From Deltaproteobacteria bacterium (lineage in GTDB: Bacteria; Desulfobacterota; Desulfobacteria; Desulfobacterales; SURF-15), in NCBI GenBank assembly GCA_019309565.1, contig JAFDFZ010000002.1, positions 1-64,000 on the forward strand: a stretch of 64,000 nucleotides of DNA, read 5' to 3'. The first letter of the stretch is position 1. Each line of letters begins with the position of its first letter. This document shows, one piece after another, positions 54,525-63,441 of the stretch. The notes under the pieces are model-generated. The model did no database searches. It was not told the origin of the DNA and saw only the letters and a program-made list of their open reading frames with translations. A program made the position numbers and the translations under genes.

Positions 54525-56108
54525 CTATTGGTACATGGGTTCTACTATAAGAGGTCTTTTTAACATCTTTTCATAAAGATAGATGTATTGTTTTGCGGTA
54601 GCCGTGTGGTTAAACCTCTGTATGCTTTCTGTCATGATGCGTTCAACATGCACGCTTCTAACTTCCCGGGGAAGCGAATGGAACTTCATGGCCTGATCCA
54701 TTGCCCAGAGAAGGCCATTTGAGTCGAAAACTTCAAACAGAAACCCATTGCCACGGTTATGTTCGAGGTCCATATGGGTGACGGTATCGTGGATGCCGCC
54801 GGTATCGTGGGCTACCGGAAGGGACCCGTATATTGGGCCGATCATTTGGGGAAGACCGCAGGGTTCGAAACGCGACGGCATGAGTATAAAATCCGAAGCT
54901 GCATAAGCCTGCCGTGCCAGGCGCTCGTCGAAGTTACAGATGGCCACCCGGTTTTCTATATGGTGAAAGGCGACGATATCTCTAAAATGCCTTCGAAACT
55001 CACCGCTTGCAACGAAAACAATCTGAAGATGCCGATTCCAGTAACGGGAAACTACCGTGTACAGAATCTCTGCCAGCAACTGGCAACCCTTCTGAATCCG
55101 GTCCAGACGGGAGGGCCAAAAAAATACGGGCGCCTGTTCATCTTCAATAAGACCCAGGTTTTTTTGAAGCAAGATCTTGTTTGCCTGTTTCCCTCTTACA
55201 TGAGTCTTCGGATCATATGTTTTGATAAGCGCCCTGTCGGTGGCTGGGTTAAAGGAAGGATCAGGGGCGTTTAAGATGCCGAACGCGCAATGAGCGTTCC
55301 ATTTGTTTATCAATTCTCTTCGAATGTGCGGTTCTATGAATTCATGCCTGCCCTCTACAATTTCTTTTAGAAATGCGGGGCTTACGGTGTTGACAAAATG
55401 AGCGGCAAAAATTCCGCTTGCCAGGAAGTCCACGGGATTGCTCTCTCGCGCTTCTTCATAATCCCATGCCATGTGTTCATAGTACAGGTGATGCCAGAAA
55501 TAGGCCGCATCGATACCCCGATCTTCAATCTGGGCAAGCGTAACTTTCATCGTGTGAATGTTGTGAACCGTAAAAAGCGCTGGAATACCCATACGCCTCG
55601 CAACGGCGGGCAGCAGCCCTGTCATCCAGTCGTTGCAATGTATCAAGTCGGGACGAACCCGCGGAATAATGTTATTGATGACCTCACGCTGAAAGGAAAG
55701 AGAGATTTTCACGTTTTCCCACCCAACTCCGCTATAGACCTGAGGAAGATAAAAAAACGCCCTGTCTTCCGCCAGATGTACTCGGTCTTCCGGCATCTTG
55801 CTTTGAATGGTTTCAAGCTCTTTACCTAAAACAGAGGCAATATGCACATTGAACAATCTGCGATAATCGGGCATTGCCACGTGTACATCCGCCCCCTGCT
55901 CAAAAAGGGCATTGATAAGCGCAGCTGACACGTCCGCCAGCCCTCCGGCCTTGGCTGTAAAATAGTTGGCCATATTCCCCATTCCCTCTGGAAGATAGGT
56001 GACCTCGGGAGTGACGATGAGAATTCTTGGATTCTTTGATTGCCGCGTTACTTTCAATATAACTGCCCCCTTTAAGCCGCCGGCATTTTCCCTCAGGGAA
56101 TCGCCCAT
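54525..56108 (-). CDS. glgA: Glycogen (starch) synthase, GT5
   Basis: A 527-residue GT-B enzyme that extends alpha-1,4-glucan from ADP- or UDP-glucose. It shows TAKAGGLADVSAAL (the KxGGL donor motif), CNDWMTGLLPAVARRMGIPA, and the C-terminal ILMPSRFEPCGLPQMIGPIYGSLPVA, the E-x7-E type region. The N-terminal extension (about 25 residues) before RILIVTPEV is not conserved. Its ATG overlaps the glgP 3' end by 16 bases, so phosphorylase, synthase and branching enzyme are translationally linked. Confidence 0.92.
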   Translation of the reverse strand: MGDSLRENAGGLKGAVILKVTRQSKNPRILIVTPEVTYLPEGMGNMANYFTAKAGGLADVSAALINALFEQGADVHVAMPDYRRLFNVHIASVLGKELETIQSKMPEDRVHLAEDRAFFYLPQVYSGVGWENVKISLSFQREVINNIIPRVRPDLIHCNDWMTGLLPAVARRMGIPALFTVHNIHTMKVTLAQIEDRGIDAAYFWHHLYYEHMAWDYEEARESNPVDFLASGIFAAHFVNTVSPAFLKEIVEGRHEFIEPHIRRELINKWNAHCAFGILNAPDPSFNPATDRALIKTYDPKTHVRGKQANKILLQKNLGLIEDEQAPVFFWPSRLDRIQKGCQLLAEILYTVVSRYWNRHLQIVFVASGEFRRHFRDIVAFHHIENRVAICNFDERLARQAYAASDFILMPSRFEPCGLPQMIGPIYGSLPVAHDTGGIHDTVTHMDLEHNRGNGFLFEVFDSNGLLWAMDQAMKFHSLPREVRSVHVERIMTESIQRFNHTATAKQYIYLYEKMLKRPLIVEPMYQ

Positions 56109-58651
56109 GTAACCAAACCAGGCGTAAATTTAACCCAGTCATCTCCCTGGGGCGTAACCCGGCATGTAAAACCGTATCGGCCCGTTCTGTTCAGGGTCAA
56201 ATCGCAGCCGTATACATAGTTCCCATTGCCCCGATCTTCTTTTACGGTCATTTTTTCGGTATTGCTGGTTTGCAGAGTTTCCACGGTCTTCAACGGGCCG
56301 TAGTAGATATCCACCGAAACCTCATGAGGCATTAATTGCCCGAGGTGAACTTCAGCCGTTACATGAACCGTGGCACCGGTATGAAGCGGGTCCTTTGAAT
56401 TCATAACAGGGGATTTTATTTGAATATTATCCCAGTGAGCTTTAAGCCTATCCAGCTGCCTGCTGAGCCGCTTTGCCTCGGCAGCTTCGTTTTCAACAAG
56501 ACCGCGCATACGGCTTGCAGCGGGCAGATAAAACCTTTTGCCGTAATTTTCAACCATCTTGTGGCTGCTGAATCGCAACATCGCCATCTTCATAGCGGCC
56601 TTCATCATCTTAATCCATTGGAGGGGCAAATCACCGTTTTTTCTTTCGTAGAAAAGAGGGATAACGTCGTTTTCCAGGATATTGTATAATGCCTGACTTT
56701 CTACAGCGTCTTGGTATTTGTGGTCTGAATACTCCTCACCATTGCCGATACACCATCCGGTACTTTCCGAATATCCTTCAGCCCACCATCCATCAAGTGT
56801 GCTGATATTGAGCACCCCGTTTAAGGCGGCCTTCATTCCCGATGTTCCGCACGCTTCGTAGGGTCGCCTGGGGGTATTAAGCCATACATCGGCACCCTGA
56901 ATCAGGTGCCGTGCAATGTGAGGGTCGTAATTTTCCAAAAAAATGAATCGATGGCGGACACCTTTTTTCTGTGAAAACAGGATCAACTGCCGGATCAAAT
57001 CCTTCCCTTCCCGGTCTTTGGGATGTGCCTTTCCCGAGAAGATAAACTGTACCGGGTGAGTTTTCGATGTAATGATAGCTTCCAGCCGTTCCGGGTCCAT
57101 TAATAACAAATATGCCCGCTTGTAAGACGCAAATCGACGCGCAAACCCGATCGTCAAAATATCCTGGTCAAGTACCGCTTCCACTTCATCCATCACGGCC
57201 TTGGGTGCGTTTCTTCTCTGGTATTGTTGTTTCATCAACTCCCGGCAGGTTCGAATCAACCGCGATCGATTCATTTCATGAGCACGCCACAGTTCTTCAT
57301 TATATATTTCCTCTATTCTTTTTGAAATATCCTTCTTCCAAGGACTTATTGACCAATCCGGCCCGAGGTATCTTTCAAATAGCAGCGCAAATTCGTATGA
57401 GATCCATGTAGGCACATGGACACCGTTTGTCACATGGGTGATCGGAATTTCATCTTCAGATCGTTTAGGCCAGGCATGAGACCACATCCGACGAGCCACC
57501 CTTCCGTGAAGTTCGCTTACACCATTCAGGTACTGAGCGAATCGAACGCCCAGCACAAACATGGAAAACGGTGCATGGGAATCCGAGCCGCCGACTCGTC
57601 CCTAGGACAGGATTTCGTCCACCGGGATGCCGAAGGTTTTTTCAAATGGAACAAGGCACGGTTTTACAAGCTCTGCAGGGAATTCGTCATGACCGACGGC
57701 CACTGGCGTATGTGTCGTGAATACAGTAGATCGGGGTCCTATCTGAAGGGCTTCTTTCAGTGTAACCGAATGACGGGCCATGATCTGGGCCAAACGCTCA
57801 ATGCAGGCAAAGCTGCAATGGCCTTCGTTGAGATGAATGACACTGGGATAGATATCCATTGCTGCAAGCGCGCGCATGCCCCCCACACCCAGCAGCAACT
57901 CCTGAGAGAGCCGGATTTTTTGATCTTCTTCATATAGCATGGCGGTGACATCTCTGATGTGGGGCGGGTTGTCAGGGAGGTTTGCGTCAAGCAAATACAA
58001 TGGAACACATCCGATTTGAGTCTTCCAGACACATGCACGGATTTCCCCATCCGGGCCCGTCACCGAAACGCACAGGTCTTTGCCTGCAGCTTCAGCCACC
58101 CGCTCGATAGGCAGATGAAAAAAATCACATTCCGGATATGCTTCCTGTTGCATCCCGTCCTGACTTAAAAACTGAAAGAAATACCCCTGACGATAAAGCA
58201 GTCCGATTCCGATGACAGGAAGTACCATATCGGATGCGGCCTTTAGATGATCTCCGGCCAGCACTCCAAGCCCCCCGGCGAAAAGGGGCAGACTTTCATG
58301 AACGCCGAACTCCATGGAAAAATATGCCACCTCTCCCTGAATCTGTGCATATGGAAATTCAAATTCATCAGAAGGCTTGCATCGAATGGATTCGAAACGT
58401 TTCTTTACTCGCTCCAAGTGGGCTTGAAAGCTTTTGTCTTCAGCCAGCTCTTCATATCGCCTCTGGGGCACCATGGACAAAAAGGCAATGGGATTTCTTT
58501 CAGCCCGAGCCCAAAGCCTCGGGTCCATCCGGCGAAACAGCTCTATGGCATCATGCTGCCAGCTCCACCAAAGATTTCGGGAAAGTGTTTCCAAAAAAGA
58601 CAATGCTTCCGGAATTGCCGGAAGAACCTGGAATGTTTTCAGATGATTCAT
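56093..58651 (-). pseudogene. glgP: Alpha-glucan phosphorylase with one in-frame TAG
   Basis: GT35 phosphorylase of the short (about 850 aa) type, broken by a single TAG at 57604-57602 without a frame change. The N part (349 codons) has LETLSRNLWWSWQHDA, GLGVLAGDHLKAASDM and THTPVAVGHDEFP. The C part (502 codons) has ITHVTNGVHVPTW, the PLP lysine in GTSGMKAALNGVLN and DGWWAEGYSESTGW. Sequence around the stop reads DEILS, stop, GRVGG; many relatives have Leu-Gly-Arg there, so TTG to TAG is one change. MNHLKTF at 58651 is the preferred start. Nonsense mutation, read-through or sequencing error are all possible. Confidence 0.85.
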
Positions 58652-58752
58652 GCTGTTTTCACTTCCCATGTACAGATTTGATCTTTCGATCGAAAATAAA
58701 CTAACAGCCCGGATTAAATCAAGGGCAAACCGCATGGGGGTACAACAATTTA

Positions 58753-59154
58753 CTCAAGTTTCGCACCACTAATCCTTTGAAATGCCTTATATGATGGGGT
58801 CGAATAAAATTTTTGAAGGCAAAATACATTTTATCACCCTTCGATAACGGCACAATGGGAGTCAACAAAGCACCTAAACCAGAAGTAACAGGATCTTCCG
58901 CTGTTTAGTGGCCTTTTCCTTGTGCATGGACCCGATGTTTCGTAATGGCTGCCTCCTAAGAGCTTCGATGTAATTATTTTGCCTTCAAAAATTTTACCCC
59001 GTTGTTTTATAAAACCGCTCAAAGCGGTGCAGCCGTTAGATACTTATAGATAGGGCAAAATGGCAATTCTACTATGTGATTAATACAACTACGGGGTTTA
59101 TTCGACTTAACATCCATTAGCAATTTTACGGTAAAATAGGGTGCGAAACTTGAG
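58753..59154. mobile_element. Larger inverted-repeat element with nested R4
   Basis: Ends are CTCAAGTTTCGCACC (58753-58767) and its perfect inverse (59140-59154), flanked by a 6-bp direct repeat AATTTA (58747-58752 and 59155-59160). A second 28-bp perfect inverted block starts at 58799 (GTCGAATAAAATTTTTGAAG and on). Its right partner is split by element R4; removing R4 and one TTTA rejoins it exactly. Without R4 the element is about 298 bp and noncoding. The right-hand duplication includes the stop codon of the debranching-enzyme gene. Confidence 0.65.
58997..59096 (-). mobile_element. About 100-bp MITE-like element, copy R4, nested
   Basis: A 100-bp element, CCCCGTTGTTTTAT at the left and ACAACTACGGGG at the right, flanked by TTTA on both sides (58993-58996, 59097-59100). 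On the minus strand it has GTAGTTGTATTAATC and AAGTATCTAACGG like R1-R3, more diverged. It lies within the right arm of the larger element, which dates its insertion as later. Confidence 0.65.
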
Positions 59155-59157
59155 AAT

Positions 59158-62100
59158 TTATTCGGAAAGCAGTTTCCAGACCCTCAACGCTTCACTGATC
59201 GACCATGCCTGGGCATCACATCCCCGCTGGGGATGGGGAGAATCTCCATCCACAATTTCCGGGAGGTTTCCGATGCAGCCGGTTTCAAGCAGCCTGGCAC
59301 AGCTTGCAAGCCATGCAAAAGCAGTAGGCTTTGCACTTGGTCCGTAAGTTACCACCCATGCCTCGCAGAAGCTTGGAAGTACCCACGTCCAGGCGGTTCC
59401 ATTGTGATAGGCCGGTTTTCTTTGAGTGTCTTCATCGCCCACATATTTCCCTTGGTAAGGGTGGTGGGGATCATTAAGCAGTCGTGCCTTGTGTATGACA
59501 GGCAGCGGACGGCGGACCGGACGATCTGCAAGGCTGCGGATGGCACCGGGTACCAAAAGTTCTTCACATGCGGTAACGACGTTCTGACGGACAACCTGGT
59601 CCTTTATTGCACCAAGAGTTATGGCAAACAACTGGTTCGGTCTCAATGCATCGTCTTTTTCGGCAGACTTGGCCGATTGTCCGGGGGGGGCATGAAGACA
59701 ATCTGAAAGATAAGCATCTTCCTTAAGGTAGAAGTACTCCAGGATGGAGACTCGGATCTGTTCGGCCATTTTTCTCCAATTTTCACTTGTATCGATCCGC
59801 GCCAGGAAAGACACCGCTGCGTACCACAGCGCCTGAATCTCAATGGGATATCCTTGCCGCGGGGTTCCCGCTGGATGATTTGTATCCATCCAGGTGAAAT
59901 GAGCCGGGCTGAAGAGCAATGTCGTTTCAGGGTCCATTCGAATTCCGTTGGGAGTACCTGAAATCAAGGATCGACCGATAGAGACAAGGATCTCTCGAAT
60001 GGTTCTTCTACCGCATGTCTCTTTAAGACAATCTTCGGCTCCCTCCTGGTCCACAATATCCTTTATGGCAACGAAAAACCAAAGCGGTGCATCAGATGTG
60101 TCCCGGTTGCCGGCATCTTCGCCACGGATCATATTGGGCAAGGTTCCGCGGTGTTCAAATTGGCCGAACTGTTTTAGGATTTTCCGTGCATCCTCTGTGC
60201 GGCCGTCTGCAATCATCCCCCTTACTGCAATCATTGCATCTCTGCCCCAGTCCAGAAACCATGGATACCCGGCAATCACGGTTTTAAGGTTTCCCCTGTT
60301 CACAACAAAATGGCTCATTGCCAGGCTTAACATGTTTTCCGGCTTGTTGTTCCCCGTTTCTTTTGCATGAACGATTTGTTTCTTTAAACATAAAGAAACT
60401 TTTGTATCCACAGGCTCAGGCGATACCCGTGCTGTCAGCTCAGAAATCTGGCCGCCTTTTAGAGGGATTGAAAAATATCCCGGACTGAACAAATCAGAGG
60501 CAGGGTCGAACCCCCGTTCTGCATCCAGGGGGTGGTGTACCATGTAATGCCATTCAGGCTCGAAAACAAATTGCCCCTGAGATACATTTAGCTGCAGACA
60601 GTGCTTCGCTTCGGGTGCAAACACGAATCCATCGTGAAGGGGTTTTACGGATTTTGGATACTGATGTTCCGGGCCGGTATAAGCTTTTGTGTTGCCATGG
60701 AAATTGCGGCTTTCAATATCGGGACGAAGAATCAAATTGACGGTTTTATCGTCCGCCAGTCTGTCATCCATCCCTTTTGCAGGATGCCGGTAAAAGGCCA
60801 TGCCGATCGCATTTACTCCTTTAACCATCTCAAGGCCGACGGTAATAATAACATGTTCTCCCTGGCCTGTGGGGACATGAAATTGCCAAAACCCCCTGGA
60901 GTCATTTTCTGTATAAAACAGCTCGAGGCAATTCTTGTTTATTGCCTGTGAGTATCCCTGAAAGACGACCCATGCGCGACATCTGGTAAACATGATCCAT
61001 CGATCTGTCGGGACATCCGGGAGCGGGTTTGCCGCTAGCAGCGCATCGTAACGGCTGTTGAGCTCTGCCCACAAAACAGGCGTCCGAAGCATGGCACCGC
61101 AACCATTTGTGGCCAAAAAAAGCAGGGGTTGCTCAAGTATTTCCCGGCGCCTGTAGGTTTTTTTTACTCTAACGGATTCGGCATAGGGAAGGTAAAGAAC
61201 AGGACATTCTGCATGCGTGTTTCCCTGGGCCTCATATACTGAAAGCTTCAGTGCCAGGGAGCGAAAAGCCCTGGGCTGTGGCTGCGGCGGGATGAGAACG
61301 AAGTGCCTTTCATCCTGTAAGGGTAAGCTTTCCTCATGGGCTACGGTTCGATTGTCTTCAACAATGTCTGCTCGAAACGGAGCTTCAGCTAAAATGAGAA
61401 GAAAATGATCCGGCGGTATCATAACGGTCCGCCGCCTGTCCTGCGGCCATCTCCAGCAAATCACCCGGGACTCCCTGCTTACAGGATTAAGAGCCCGGCA
61501 GTACTCTAAAGGGTCCTGACGCAGCTGGCAGGCGGCGTGATTCGGATCAAACTTGGATAAATCCCTCATCCCCATGTAATATTGAAATACTTCCAATGCC
61601 TTCATGCGATAGCGCTGTTTTAAGATTCGTTCCGGAATCTTGAACTTATGTTGTCTGCTGCCGCCAAGAATATCAATATCTTCCATATTCGGTGAAAGGC
61701 ACATCACCTGGGCCGGACCTAAATTGATACGGCACATGGTGTCGAAGGCCTGAACGGTAACCGGTTTATCGGTAAGAAGATCAATGAAATCCGCACTGTC
61801 TATCCCCGATTGCCTCCTGTCCCAGAGCGCTTCGGCTGGTTGGGTATCATCAAGGTTTGCAATGACAAGAAGCCGCTTGCCAGAGGGGAGATGATGTCTT
61901 AGCAACACCACTGTGTTCAAACCGCCCTTTTGGATGAGCTTCATTTCAGTGTTGTCAAAGAAAGCCGGATGAACTTTTAGCAACCGAGTCAATCGGCCGA
62001 TTTCTTTCACCTGGTTTGGAGTCGCCCCCCAGTTCAGAGAAGGCGAGTTATGCACATCGATTTTCTCGGTTGCAAACCATTCAACCCCGTTGGCGAAACC

Positions 62101-63441
62101 AAACGCCCCATTATGGGAGCAAAGTGCACAGAGTGCTGTGCGCATTTTCGCATATGCCCGAGATCTTGAAGCAAGCCGGGGGTTGTCGTGAGTTTCAGCA
62201 AAATGTACCATGATCCCCTCGGTGCCGGAGATGTCAAAAACACCGGGCAGATAAGATTCGATCTGACGGCGATCGTAGTTTTGAAACAGCTCGGAGTATG
62301 CCCAATTAAAATTGGATATGTTAAGAATATCCCGGGTAACCGAAATCTTTCCTCCCAGCCCTTCAAGAAAAAAAAGCGTCTCCGGGTACTGCTCTCTCAC
62401 GGTGGCAACAATATATCTCCAGGTTGACACAGGGACCATATACCCTGCATCGCACCTGAACCCGTCTACACCACGTCGGCACCATGTGAGAAAGATCTCG
62501 GCCATAAATTGCCACAAAGACTTATGCGAATAGTCCAGTCTTGTTAGATCTTCCCACCGAACCCCCCAGGCTTCCGGGACTTCGATTTTTCCCTCCGGAT
62601 CTCGAAGCAGCCACTGAGGGTGGGTGTCGTGAAGCCTGGCGGCCCAGCCGGTGTGGTTGATGGCAATATCCAGAATGACCTTTGCCTGCCTGGAATGAAC
62701 GGCATCCACAAGCTCAATGAATTGTTCAAGAGGGGTTGCCCTTGGATCAAACTCGGCCAAAGCAGGATCGACGGTCTTGAAACTCAGAGAGGCAAACGGG
62801 CTTCCAAATCGCCCCATTCGACCGTAAGTGGTTGGGGTGGGATGAATCGGCAACAACTGTATAACCCTGCAACCAAGTTCTCCGATAATGAAGTCCAGTT
62901 CCTTGATCAGGTCTCGAAATTTTCCAGATGCAGGGATCACAGCATACCCGCGTTGATCCAGGTGTTTGATTAGTTCAGCTTCCTGGGCCGTTAATCTTTC
63001 ATTCCCGCTTTTGTTGGGGCCAAACTGTCGGACAAAGGCGTTGTATATGATGTTGGCACAGCAAGTATCGGCAGGTTCTACATTGATGGCGCAATTGGGA
63101 CCTTGCGGCCATATAGGGTTTGCTGCCTCTTTTTCCAGAAAAAAACATTTCGCCTCGAAATGACCGATTTGATAAAGCGGAAGCGTTACCTGAAACTGTC
63201 GATCGTCGATTCGGTTCATGGGGATATCGAACCAGTCCCGGCCCAGGGGGGTTTCGTCGCTTTCGACTTCTCGTATGATTTCGCGTCTCGTAATTTCAAC
63301 ATGACCGAGATTGGTGCGAAGCCATGCCCTTCCTTTTCTTGGAACCGAAACGCTCAGGGAAAACCTCAGGGTATCTCCGCAAAATTTCAAAAGATGGGCT
63401 CCAGGTGCAGGTTGTTGTACAATAAATGCCGGGTCGTTCAT
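59158..63441 (-). CDS. Bifunctional glycogen debranching enzyme (GH13 + GH133)
   Basis: A 1427-residue protein built like the eukaryotic debrancher. An N-terminal beta domain precedes a GH13 transferase barrel (about 165-600): IQLLPIHPTPTTYGRMG, KVILDIAINHTGW, nucleophile GVDGFRCDAGYM, VHFAETHDNPRLASR. A long linker region follows. The C-terminal amylo-1,6-glucosidase (about 1040-1427) has GYPWFLDWGRDAMIAVRGMI, NMIRGEDAGNRDTSDAPLWF and VDGDSPHPQRGCDAQAWSIS. It would move maltosyl groups and release the 1,6-linked glucose. Stop at 59158 abuts the inserted element; glgP lies downstream on the same strand. Confidence 0.9.
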   Translation of the reverse strand: MNDPAFIVQQPAPGAHLLKFCGDTLRFSLSVSVPRKGRAWLRTNLGHVEITRREIIREVESDETPLGRDWFDIPMNRIDDRQFQVTLPLYQIGHFEAKCFFLEKEAANPIWPQGPNCAINVEPADTCCANIIYNAFVRQFGPNKSGNERLTAQEAELIKHLDQRGYAVIPASGKFRDLIKELDFIIGELGCRVIQLLPIHPTPTTYGRMGRFGSPFASLSFKTVDPALAEFDPRATPLEQFIELVDAVHSRQAKVILDIAINHTGWAARLHDTHPQWLLRDPEGKIEVPEAWGVRWEDLTRLDYSHKSLWQFMAEIFLTWCRRGVDGFRCDAGYMVPVSTWRYIVATVREQYPETLFFLEGLGGKISVTRDILNISNFNWAYSELFQNYDRRQIESYLPGVFDISGTEGIMVHFAETHDNPRLASRSRAYAKMRTALCALCSHNGAFGFANGVEWFATEKIDVHNSPSLNWGATPNQVKEIGRLTRLLKVHPAFFDNTEMKLIQKGGLNTVVLLRHHLPSGKRLLVIANLDDTQPAEALWDRRQSGIDSADFIDLLTDKPVTVQAFDTMCRINLGPAQVMCLSPNMEDIDILGGSRQHKFKIPERILKQRYRMKALEVFQYYMGMRDLSKFDPNHAACQLRQDPLEYCRALNPVSRESRVICWRWPQDRRRTVMIPPDHFLLILAEAPFRADIVEDNRTVAHEESLPLQDERHFVLIPPQPQPRAFRSLALKLSVYEAQGNTHAECPVLYLPYAESVRVKKTYRRREILEQPLLFLATNGCGAMLRTPVLWAELNSRYDALLAANPLPDVPTDRWIMFTRCRAWVVFQGYSQAINKNCLELFYTENDSRGFWQFHVPTGQGEHVIITVGLEMVKGVNAIGMAFYRHPAKGMDDRLADDKTVNLILRPDIESRNFHGNTKAYTGPEHQYPKSVKPLHDGFVFAPEAKHCLQLNVSQGQFVFEPEWHYMVHHPLDAERGFDPASDLFSPGYFSIPLKGGQISELTARVSPEPVDTKVSLCLKKQIVHAKETGNNKPENMLSLAMSHFVVNRGNLKTVIAGYPWFLDWGRDAMIAVRGMIADGRTEDARKILKQFGQFEHRGTLPNMIRGEDAGNRDTSDAPLWFFVAIKDIVDQEGAEDCLKETCGRRTIREILVSIGRSLISGTPNGIRMDPETTLLFSPAHFTWMDTNHPAGTPRQGYPIEIQALWYAAVSFLARIDTSENWRKMAEQIRVSILEYFYLKEDAYLSDCLHAPPGQSAKSAEKDDALRPNQLFAITLGAIKDQVVRQNVVTACEELLVPGAIRSLADRPVRRPLPVIHKARLLNDPHHPYQGKYVGDEDTQRKPAYHNGTAWTWVLPSFCEAWVVTYGPSAKPTAFAWLASCARLLETGCIGNLPEIVDGDSPHPQRGCDAQAWSISEALRVWKLLSE

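Follow-up and report, generated by a model that had tools for sequence, protein, structure and literature searches.

The 100-bp element R4, which splits an arm of a larger inverted-repeat element (M1) next to a glycogen debranching gene, sits at the identical base, in the same arm and in the same orientation (site A) in 11 of the 45 M1 copies compared in this genome, namely the debranching-locus copy and 10 others. All 12 R4 copies recovered from M1 form one clade, R4A, among 53 R elements (support 100/99). R4A probably entered M1 a single time and has since moved from one M1 copy to another, either by recombination over short tracts or by site-specific insertion.

Structure of the nested element at the debranching gene

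The window is the whole stretch of 64,000 nucleotides that was analysed, taken from a 5.47-Mb draft genome of the Desulfobacterales (288 contigs, 7.9% contamination). Within it, the nested element occupies 58747-59160, flanked by the 3′ end (stop codon) of the glycogen debranching gene and by the beginning of the alpha-glucan phosphorylase ORF; starch synthase and branching enzyme are encoded beyond the latter. The features are as follows.

57602-58735, minus strand: alpha-glucan phosphorylase, N-terminal part; next gene, same direction (Pfam DUF3417, Phosphorylase)
58747-58752, no strand: M1 target duplication, copy 1, AATTTA; abuts the M1 left end
58753-58767, plus strand: M1 left terminal inverted repeat, CTCAAGTTTCGCACC; 15/15 complementary to the right end
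58799-58826, plus strand: M1 left inner arm, 28 bp (by pairing with the right arm)
58839-58853, plus strand: M1 internal motif, CTTCGATAACGGCAC (comparison by eye)
58862-58865, plus strand: M1 site B, TCAA, empty at this locus (by comparison with other M1 copies)
58975-58996, plus strand: M1 right inner arm, portion before R4, with TTTA at its end (58993-58996) (by pairing)
58997-59096, plus strand: R4, 100-bp MITE of the R family, ends CCCCGTTGT and ACAACTACGGGG
59097-59106, plus strand: second TTTA (R4 target duplication, 59097-59100) and the remaining right inner arm
59140-59154, minus strand: M1 right terminal inverted repeat; 15/15 with the left end
59155-59160, no strand: M1 target duplication, copy 2, AATTTA; includes the debranching gene stop codon (59158-59160)
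59158-63441, minus strand: glycogen debranching enzyme ORF, 1427 aa (Pfam GDE_C, GDE_N); its 3′ end adjoins the element

The initial annotation had proposed a larger element with 15-bp inverted ends and an AATTTA duplication, interrupted in a 28-bp inner arm by R4 plus one TTTA, and this architecture was confirmed. The two ends (58753-58767 and 59140-59154) are 100% complementary, and AATTTA is found at 58747-58752 and 59155-59160, abutting both of them. With R4 in place, 58805-58826 of the inner arm pairs 22/22 with 58975-58996. When R4 (58997-59096) and one TTTA (59097-59100) are removed, 58799-58826 pairs 28/28 and the larger element measures 298 bp, as that annotation had given. This perfect pairing is special to few M1 copies, because the left-arm mirror of the TTTA target reads TGAA in 42/45 of them (TAAA in 2/45, TGGA in 1/45). 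It had also been claimed that the insertion of M1 duplicated the stop codon region. Indeed, the AATTTA hexamer contains the TAA of the debranching gene, as TTA at 59158-59160 is the minus-strand stop of the 1427-aa ORF. No ORF of at least 80 aa overlaps the M1 element at this locus.

The neighbouring alpha-glucan phosphorylase gene is divided by an in-frame TAG (57602-57604, minus strand) into ORFs 57602-58735 and 56093-57562, which lie in the same frame. Possible sources of this codon are a nonsense mutation, recoding or a sequence error.

The M1 and R families

M1 is a family of non-autonomous MITEs with 15-bp ends and a 28-bp inner inverted arm, 298 bp long without R4. The end CTCAAGTTTCGCACC has 125 genome matches with at most one mismatch (66 + 59), whereas the reversed control pattern has none. 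Of 46 copies extracted, 45 entered the comparison, the majority at full length; these are minimum numbers, as 40 of 239 candidates were scored. In 20/46 M1-type elements both ends adjoin an exact direct repeat (5 bp or longer), compared to a mean of 0.67 and a maximum of 5 with shuffled flanks. This set of 46 includes the debranching-locus copy and consists of 38 long and 8 short elements (37 of the 46 extracted copies with two readable ends, 1 inverted copy and the 8 short ones). The target duplications are mostly 6-8 bp and AT-rich. In the short derivatives (~90-100 bp) the inner part is mostly or wholly missing, and in three copies, L082 (C9), L256 (C150) and L267 (C25), the inner segment is inverted relative to the outer ends. 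This suggests flips via recombination between the 28-bp arms. At site B (TCAA), an R element is present in two copies, C109 and C59, whereas C124a has a damaged one. One R4-bearing M1, L003 (C38) at 1504-1955, merges at its right end into a second short M1-type end and represents a compound element. The composite M1+R4 RNA folds strongly (z -7.3), although an inverted repeat of such size is expected to fold well anyway. At 9 loci no Rfam match was found inside the elements (E up to 0.1); outside the elements, and at L091 only, there was a tRNA together with a sub-threshold match on the opposite strand.

R is a second MITE family, unlike M1, and R4 is one of its members: ~100 bp, non-coding, with CCCCG...CGGGG ends. 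An exact 4-bp duplication flanks 31 of the 53 short copies (60-102 bp), compared to a shuffled mean of 8.6 and maximum of 16; 11 of these 31 are site A copies, that is, one event repeated and not independent. Among R copies outside recognised repeats, 11/19 have the exact duplication (shuffled mean 2.5, maximum 7), as do all 14 longer forms of 191-194 bp. The 31 duplications are mostly TNNA (TTTA 12, TAAA 10, TTGA 2, TCAA 2, TGAG 2, TTCA 1, TGAA 1, TCTA 1). The copy number of R is again a minimum, with 40 of 115 candidates scored. The R tree was built from 53 of 73 raw pairs, leaving out the 14 long forms, two pairs of 171 and 202 bp, a spurious pair in the IS1380 locus of C191 and three longer pairs that overlap listed elements. 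The damaged site B copy of C124a was also left out. At L007 (C95), 1749-1845, both terminal bases of an R4 copy are changed complementarily (TCCCG...CGGGA).

R elements also sit inside two other repeats. The dispersed repeat M2 carries them at one of two fixed positions (L045, L056, L029, L101, L103, L297, L268, L286, L296 and L202) or, in L281, at both. In the hairpin-like repeat M3, a separate R clade (support 97/92) occupies a TAAA between the arms (L094, L099, L102, L104, L105, L289 and L293), and a similar R-free site lies near position 100 of L284. Nesting was also seen in reverse: at L091 (C288), ~336-682, an internally deleted M1 (392-634, 243 bp), with TTAGTA/TTGGTA adjoining its two ends, lies inside an R element.

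A search for transposase genes with M1 or R ends at both sides gave none at 30 IS1380-model, 30 IS1634-model and 10 DDE_Tnp_1 (PF01609) loci; for IS1380 and IS1634 these were part of longer match lists in which many matches are fragments, and three contigs of the genome itself were added to the IS1634 scan. The genome's own IS1380 (C191) was rejected as a parent of M1 or R, as its ends differ by eye. A 1.36-kb stretch between two M1 ends in G016 (C106) was rejected as an autonomous copy: the gene inside it resembles, by eye, a formamidopyrimidine glycosylase, and its left portion forms an M1-like element of its own. Two IS1634-type loci of Desulfobacterales have ends of a style similar to those of M1 (AACCCAAGTTCGACA), which is a resemblance only.

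Among relatives, R4 was found in 1/389 genomes of the order, its own, and the left part of M1 in 6/389, with partial weak matches in the five others (best two candidates per genome in both searches). With the whole element as query, 4/96 genomes gave a match, short in the three besides its own. The 18-base R4 end pattern occurs in 1/96 genomes of the order, again its own, and the exact M1 end in 24/96, its own included. An inner inverted arm was present at 3/6 tested M1-end loci of other genomes (L182, L187 and L189), with differing sequences. The motif CTTCGATAACGGCAC, which lies just inside the inner arm, was seen again, at 0 to 3 changes, in elements with the same ends from two other genera (L186, L187, L188 and L189).

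Recurrence of R4 at site A and the histories of R4A and M1

Uninterrupted copies of the 298-bp element, for which the initial annotation had suggested looking, make up 34 of the 45 M1 copies compared, and in all 34 site A is free of any scar. Together with the duplicated TTTA, these empty sites bear out the claim that R4 is a mobile element that inserted into M1 with TTTA as its target. In the 11 unrearranged hosts R4A is confined to site A (11/11). A twelfth copy lies in a rearranged M1 (C219) and lacks the TTTA duplication, which is present in 11/12 R4A copies; the copy in C204 is internally deleted (60 bp). The right arm reads TTTA at site A in 44/45 M1 copies. No R4A was found outside M1, neither among the 53 R elements in the tree nor among the 40 candidates scored out of 115, and R4A was the sole R lineage observed at site A. 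Copy C124 carries R sequence at both site A and site B. In the R tree, which has few columns, the two complete site B elements (C109 and C59) do not group as sisters; starred branches force two changes.

It had further been proposed that the nesting orders the two events at the debranching gene. This is not supported, since 10 other M1 copies share the insertion base, arm and orientation of R4. Because the M1+R4 composite recurs and may have arrived as one, the debranching locus gives no event order: R4 may have reached the gene inside M1, or it may have entered a resident M1 later. Nesting observed at a single locus is no guide to when the events there took place. The initial annotation had also named, as evidence against its reading, other large copies with R4 as a permanent component at this place; the place is indeed the same, but R4 is not fixed (11/45). 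A purely local history, in which an M1 copy first inserted at the debranching gene and was later entered there by an independently moving R4, agrees with the nesting and the TTTA duplication seen there. We regard it as very unlikely in view of the same-base insertion in ten other M1 copies, in whose clade the debranching-locus R4 falls. As a unique event it is contradicted, while an arrival in situ by homing is possible.

The single R4 clade fits one entry into M1, somewhere. To compare the histories of guest and host, a backbone tree was made from 45 of the 46 extracted M1 copies; the truncated C190 was left out, and C288, C124b, C59 and C154 are incomplete. Copies with inverted segments and short derivatives were left out of this tree and of the block trees. 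Mapped onto this tree, R4 presence requires 9 changes, of which starred branches force at least 7. Shuffled R4 labels give a mean of 10.0 changes and values as low as the observed one in 137/500 cases. A single clade of R4-bearing M1 backbones was rejected (AU p 9.6e-38). When the backbone was divided into three blocks (first 120 columns, middle, last 50 columns), 9 changes were required in each and one R4 clade was rejected in every block (p 5.9e-6, 1.4e-6 and 0.0013); these were quick trees of 42 rows, from which C288, C124b and C59 were also left out. The distribution is somewhat uneven: of the two groups separated by the deepest split, one has R4A in 7/19 rows and the other in 4/26. The R-free label shows weak clustering (22/500 shuffles as low).

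The divergence of R4A is flat compared to that of its hosts. The mean pairwise difference is 0.070 for R4A and 0.169 for the M1 backbone, and in far pairs (39/55) it is 0.073 versus 0.201, with backbone distances of R4A-bearing pairs spanning 4% to 26%. The two distances are correlated at 0.28-0.29 (Mantel p 0.11-0.12). Simulated co-descent of 10 copies (C204 left out) gave correlations of 0.76-0.77 at matching divergence, and the observed 0.29 was reached or undercut in 0.3% of simulations (300 per rate), or in 2% at the lowest rate tried. Its scatter over the backbone tree and its flat divergence support a spread of R4A among M1 copies after these had separated. R4A thus probably reached different M1 lineages after their divergence, and the M1 family looks older than the entry of R4. 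Strong conservation of R4A while active is a loophole in this reading.

Two other explanations of the scattered pattern were considered. R4A could be ancestral to the M1 copies and have been precisely lost from many of them, which would also yield scattered presence and a single R4A clade; the internally deleted R4A of C204 demonstrates that deletion occurs. However, none of the 34 R4A-free copies contains a scar, R4A divergence does not follow the backbone, and R4A would have to have been strongly conserved during its active period. Ancestral presence is improbable. Alternatively, the pattern could consist of chimeras from a metagenome assembly that we guess to be short-read, as the genome is a 288-contig draft with 7.9% contamination and many repeats of 300-400 bp. 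This is highly improbable: the copies have distinct flanks, several with duplications of their own (AATTTA, TAAATTA, TTATTTA), they are several percent apart from each other, and some lie within short contigs (4.7-12 kb).

Possible routes of R4A spread and known systems

We tentatively favour, at a shade below an even chance, a spread of R4A by short-tract recombination between M1 copies combined with transposition of composites. One R lineage, R4A, would have entered the TTTA in the right arm of one M1 copy, most simply once, and would then have spread among M1 copies that had diverged beforehand. The most likely vehicle, we infer, is short-tract recombination, in which the conserved arm would be used to the left and TTTATTCGACTTAA to the right. 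Composite M1+R4A copies would transpose as well, and the debranching-gene copy would be one product of this spread. M1 and R are presumably moved in trans by transposases. If exchange proceeds via the arms, only R4A is to be expected at site A, and in only one orientation. The arms seem to recombine, because the inner segment is inverted in three copies (C9, C150 and C25).

The flanks of site A were compared between R4A copies and R4A-free controls. Within 20 bp, the mismatch frequencies were 0.123 and 0.153, respectively, on the right, and 0.068 and 0.064 on the left, where all M1 copies are alike and the test has little power. At 21-40 bp they were 0.153 and 0.164 on the right, and a mismatch excess was observed on the left (21/220 = 0.095 compared to 33/580 = 0.057), with 8 of the 21 mismatches coming from the decayed copy C124a. 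Since there is no excess within 20 bp, a conversion tract would mostly have to end within ~10-15 bp. This is short for RecA recombination and favours targeted insertion. The landing of composites is equally compatible with the data, as the differences of R4A from its consensus (mean 0.039) and the end branches of the backbone (mean 0.055) are not significantly different (Wilcoxon p 0.32).

R4A may instead be a site-specific (homing) MITE for which empty M1 right arms are the repeated target of a trans-acting transposase, always with the same base and orientation. We consider this quite possible, though somewhat less likely than recombination. The scattered presence of R4A on the backbone tree, the small conversion signal in the site A flanks, the TTTA duplication in 11/12 R4A copies and the uninterrupted site in 34/34 R4A-free M1 copies all agree with it. 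The TTTA in 44/45 right arms, as against the mirror TGAA in 42/45 left arms, could explain the choice of arm, and the non-sister site B copies of C109 and C59 hint at repeated insertions at one base. On the other hand, other R elements use many sites, with both TTTA and TAAA relative to their own orientation, and homing leaves unexplained that no R lineage besides R4A turned up at site A; R4A, for its part, was not observed elsewhere. R4A might even be a homing mini-transposon that lives, always in one orientation, at a single base of another mini-transposon's arm and nowhere else, and spreads into empty hosts; this appears possible but doubtful, and if true, R4A would be a parasite of a parasite. 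The ~12 filled and 34 empty M1 copies in one genome represent a natural experiment on the exchange of parts between small repeats, in which targeted insertion can be contrasted with the favoured recombination via short conserved arms.

Nested MITEs are familiar in plants, and we found no prior report of M1 or R elements in the open-access library searched. According to PMC2229807, the bacterial MITEs RUP, ERIC/RU-1, Correia/NEMIS and YPAL/RU-2 are short, multi-copy and hairpin-forming, mostly with inverted ends and target duplications. M1 and R share their general traits (short, multi-copy, inverted ends, duplications), but are set apart by nesting at fixed sites, a distinction by description and not by sequence. 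The same source gives Correia/NEMIS size classes of 107 bp and 155 bp that differ by an internal block (PMC2229807). M1 likewise appears to have two size classes set by an internal block; in M1, however, the extra block is a MITE with its own ends and duplication, scattered over the host tree.

REP palindromes are the target of certain insertion sequences (ISPsy8, ISPpu9, ISPpu10 and ISRm22), copies of which occupy a single position of the repeat, as described in PMC1525189; short direct repeats are reported there for ISPsy8, ISPpu9 and ISPpu10. As with these elements, R4A copies sit at one position of a repeated palindrome, and ISPsy8, ISPpu9 and ISPpu10 would provide a precedent for homing (PMC1525189). 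In contrast to R4A, which is non-coding and 100 bp long, the REP-targeting insertion sequences encode transposases, and unlike them the wider R family is not confined to a single target. R4A behaves like a non-coding element confined to one position of another non-coding element, and its nearest precedent is whole bacterial insertion sequences confined to one REP position (PMC1525189).
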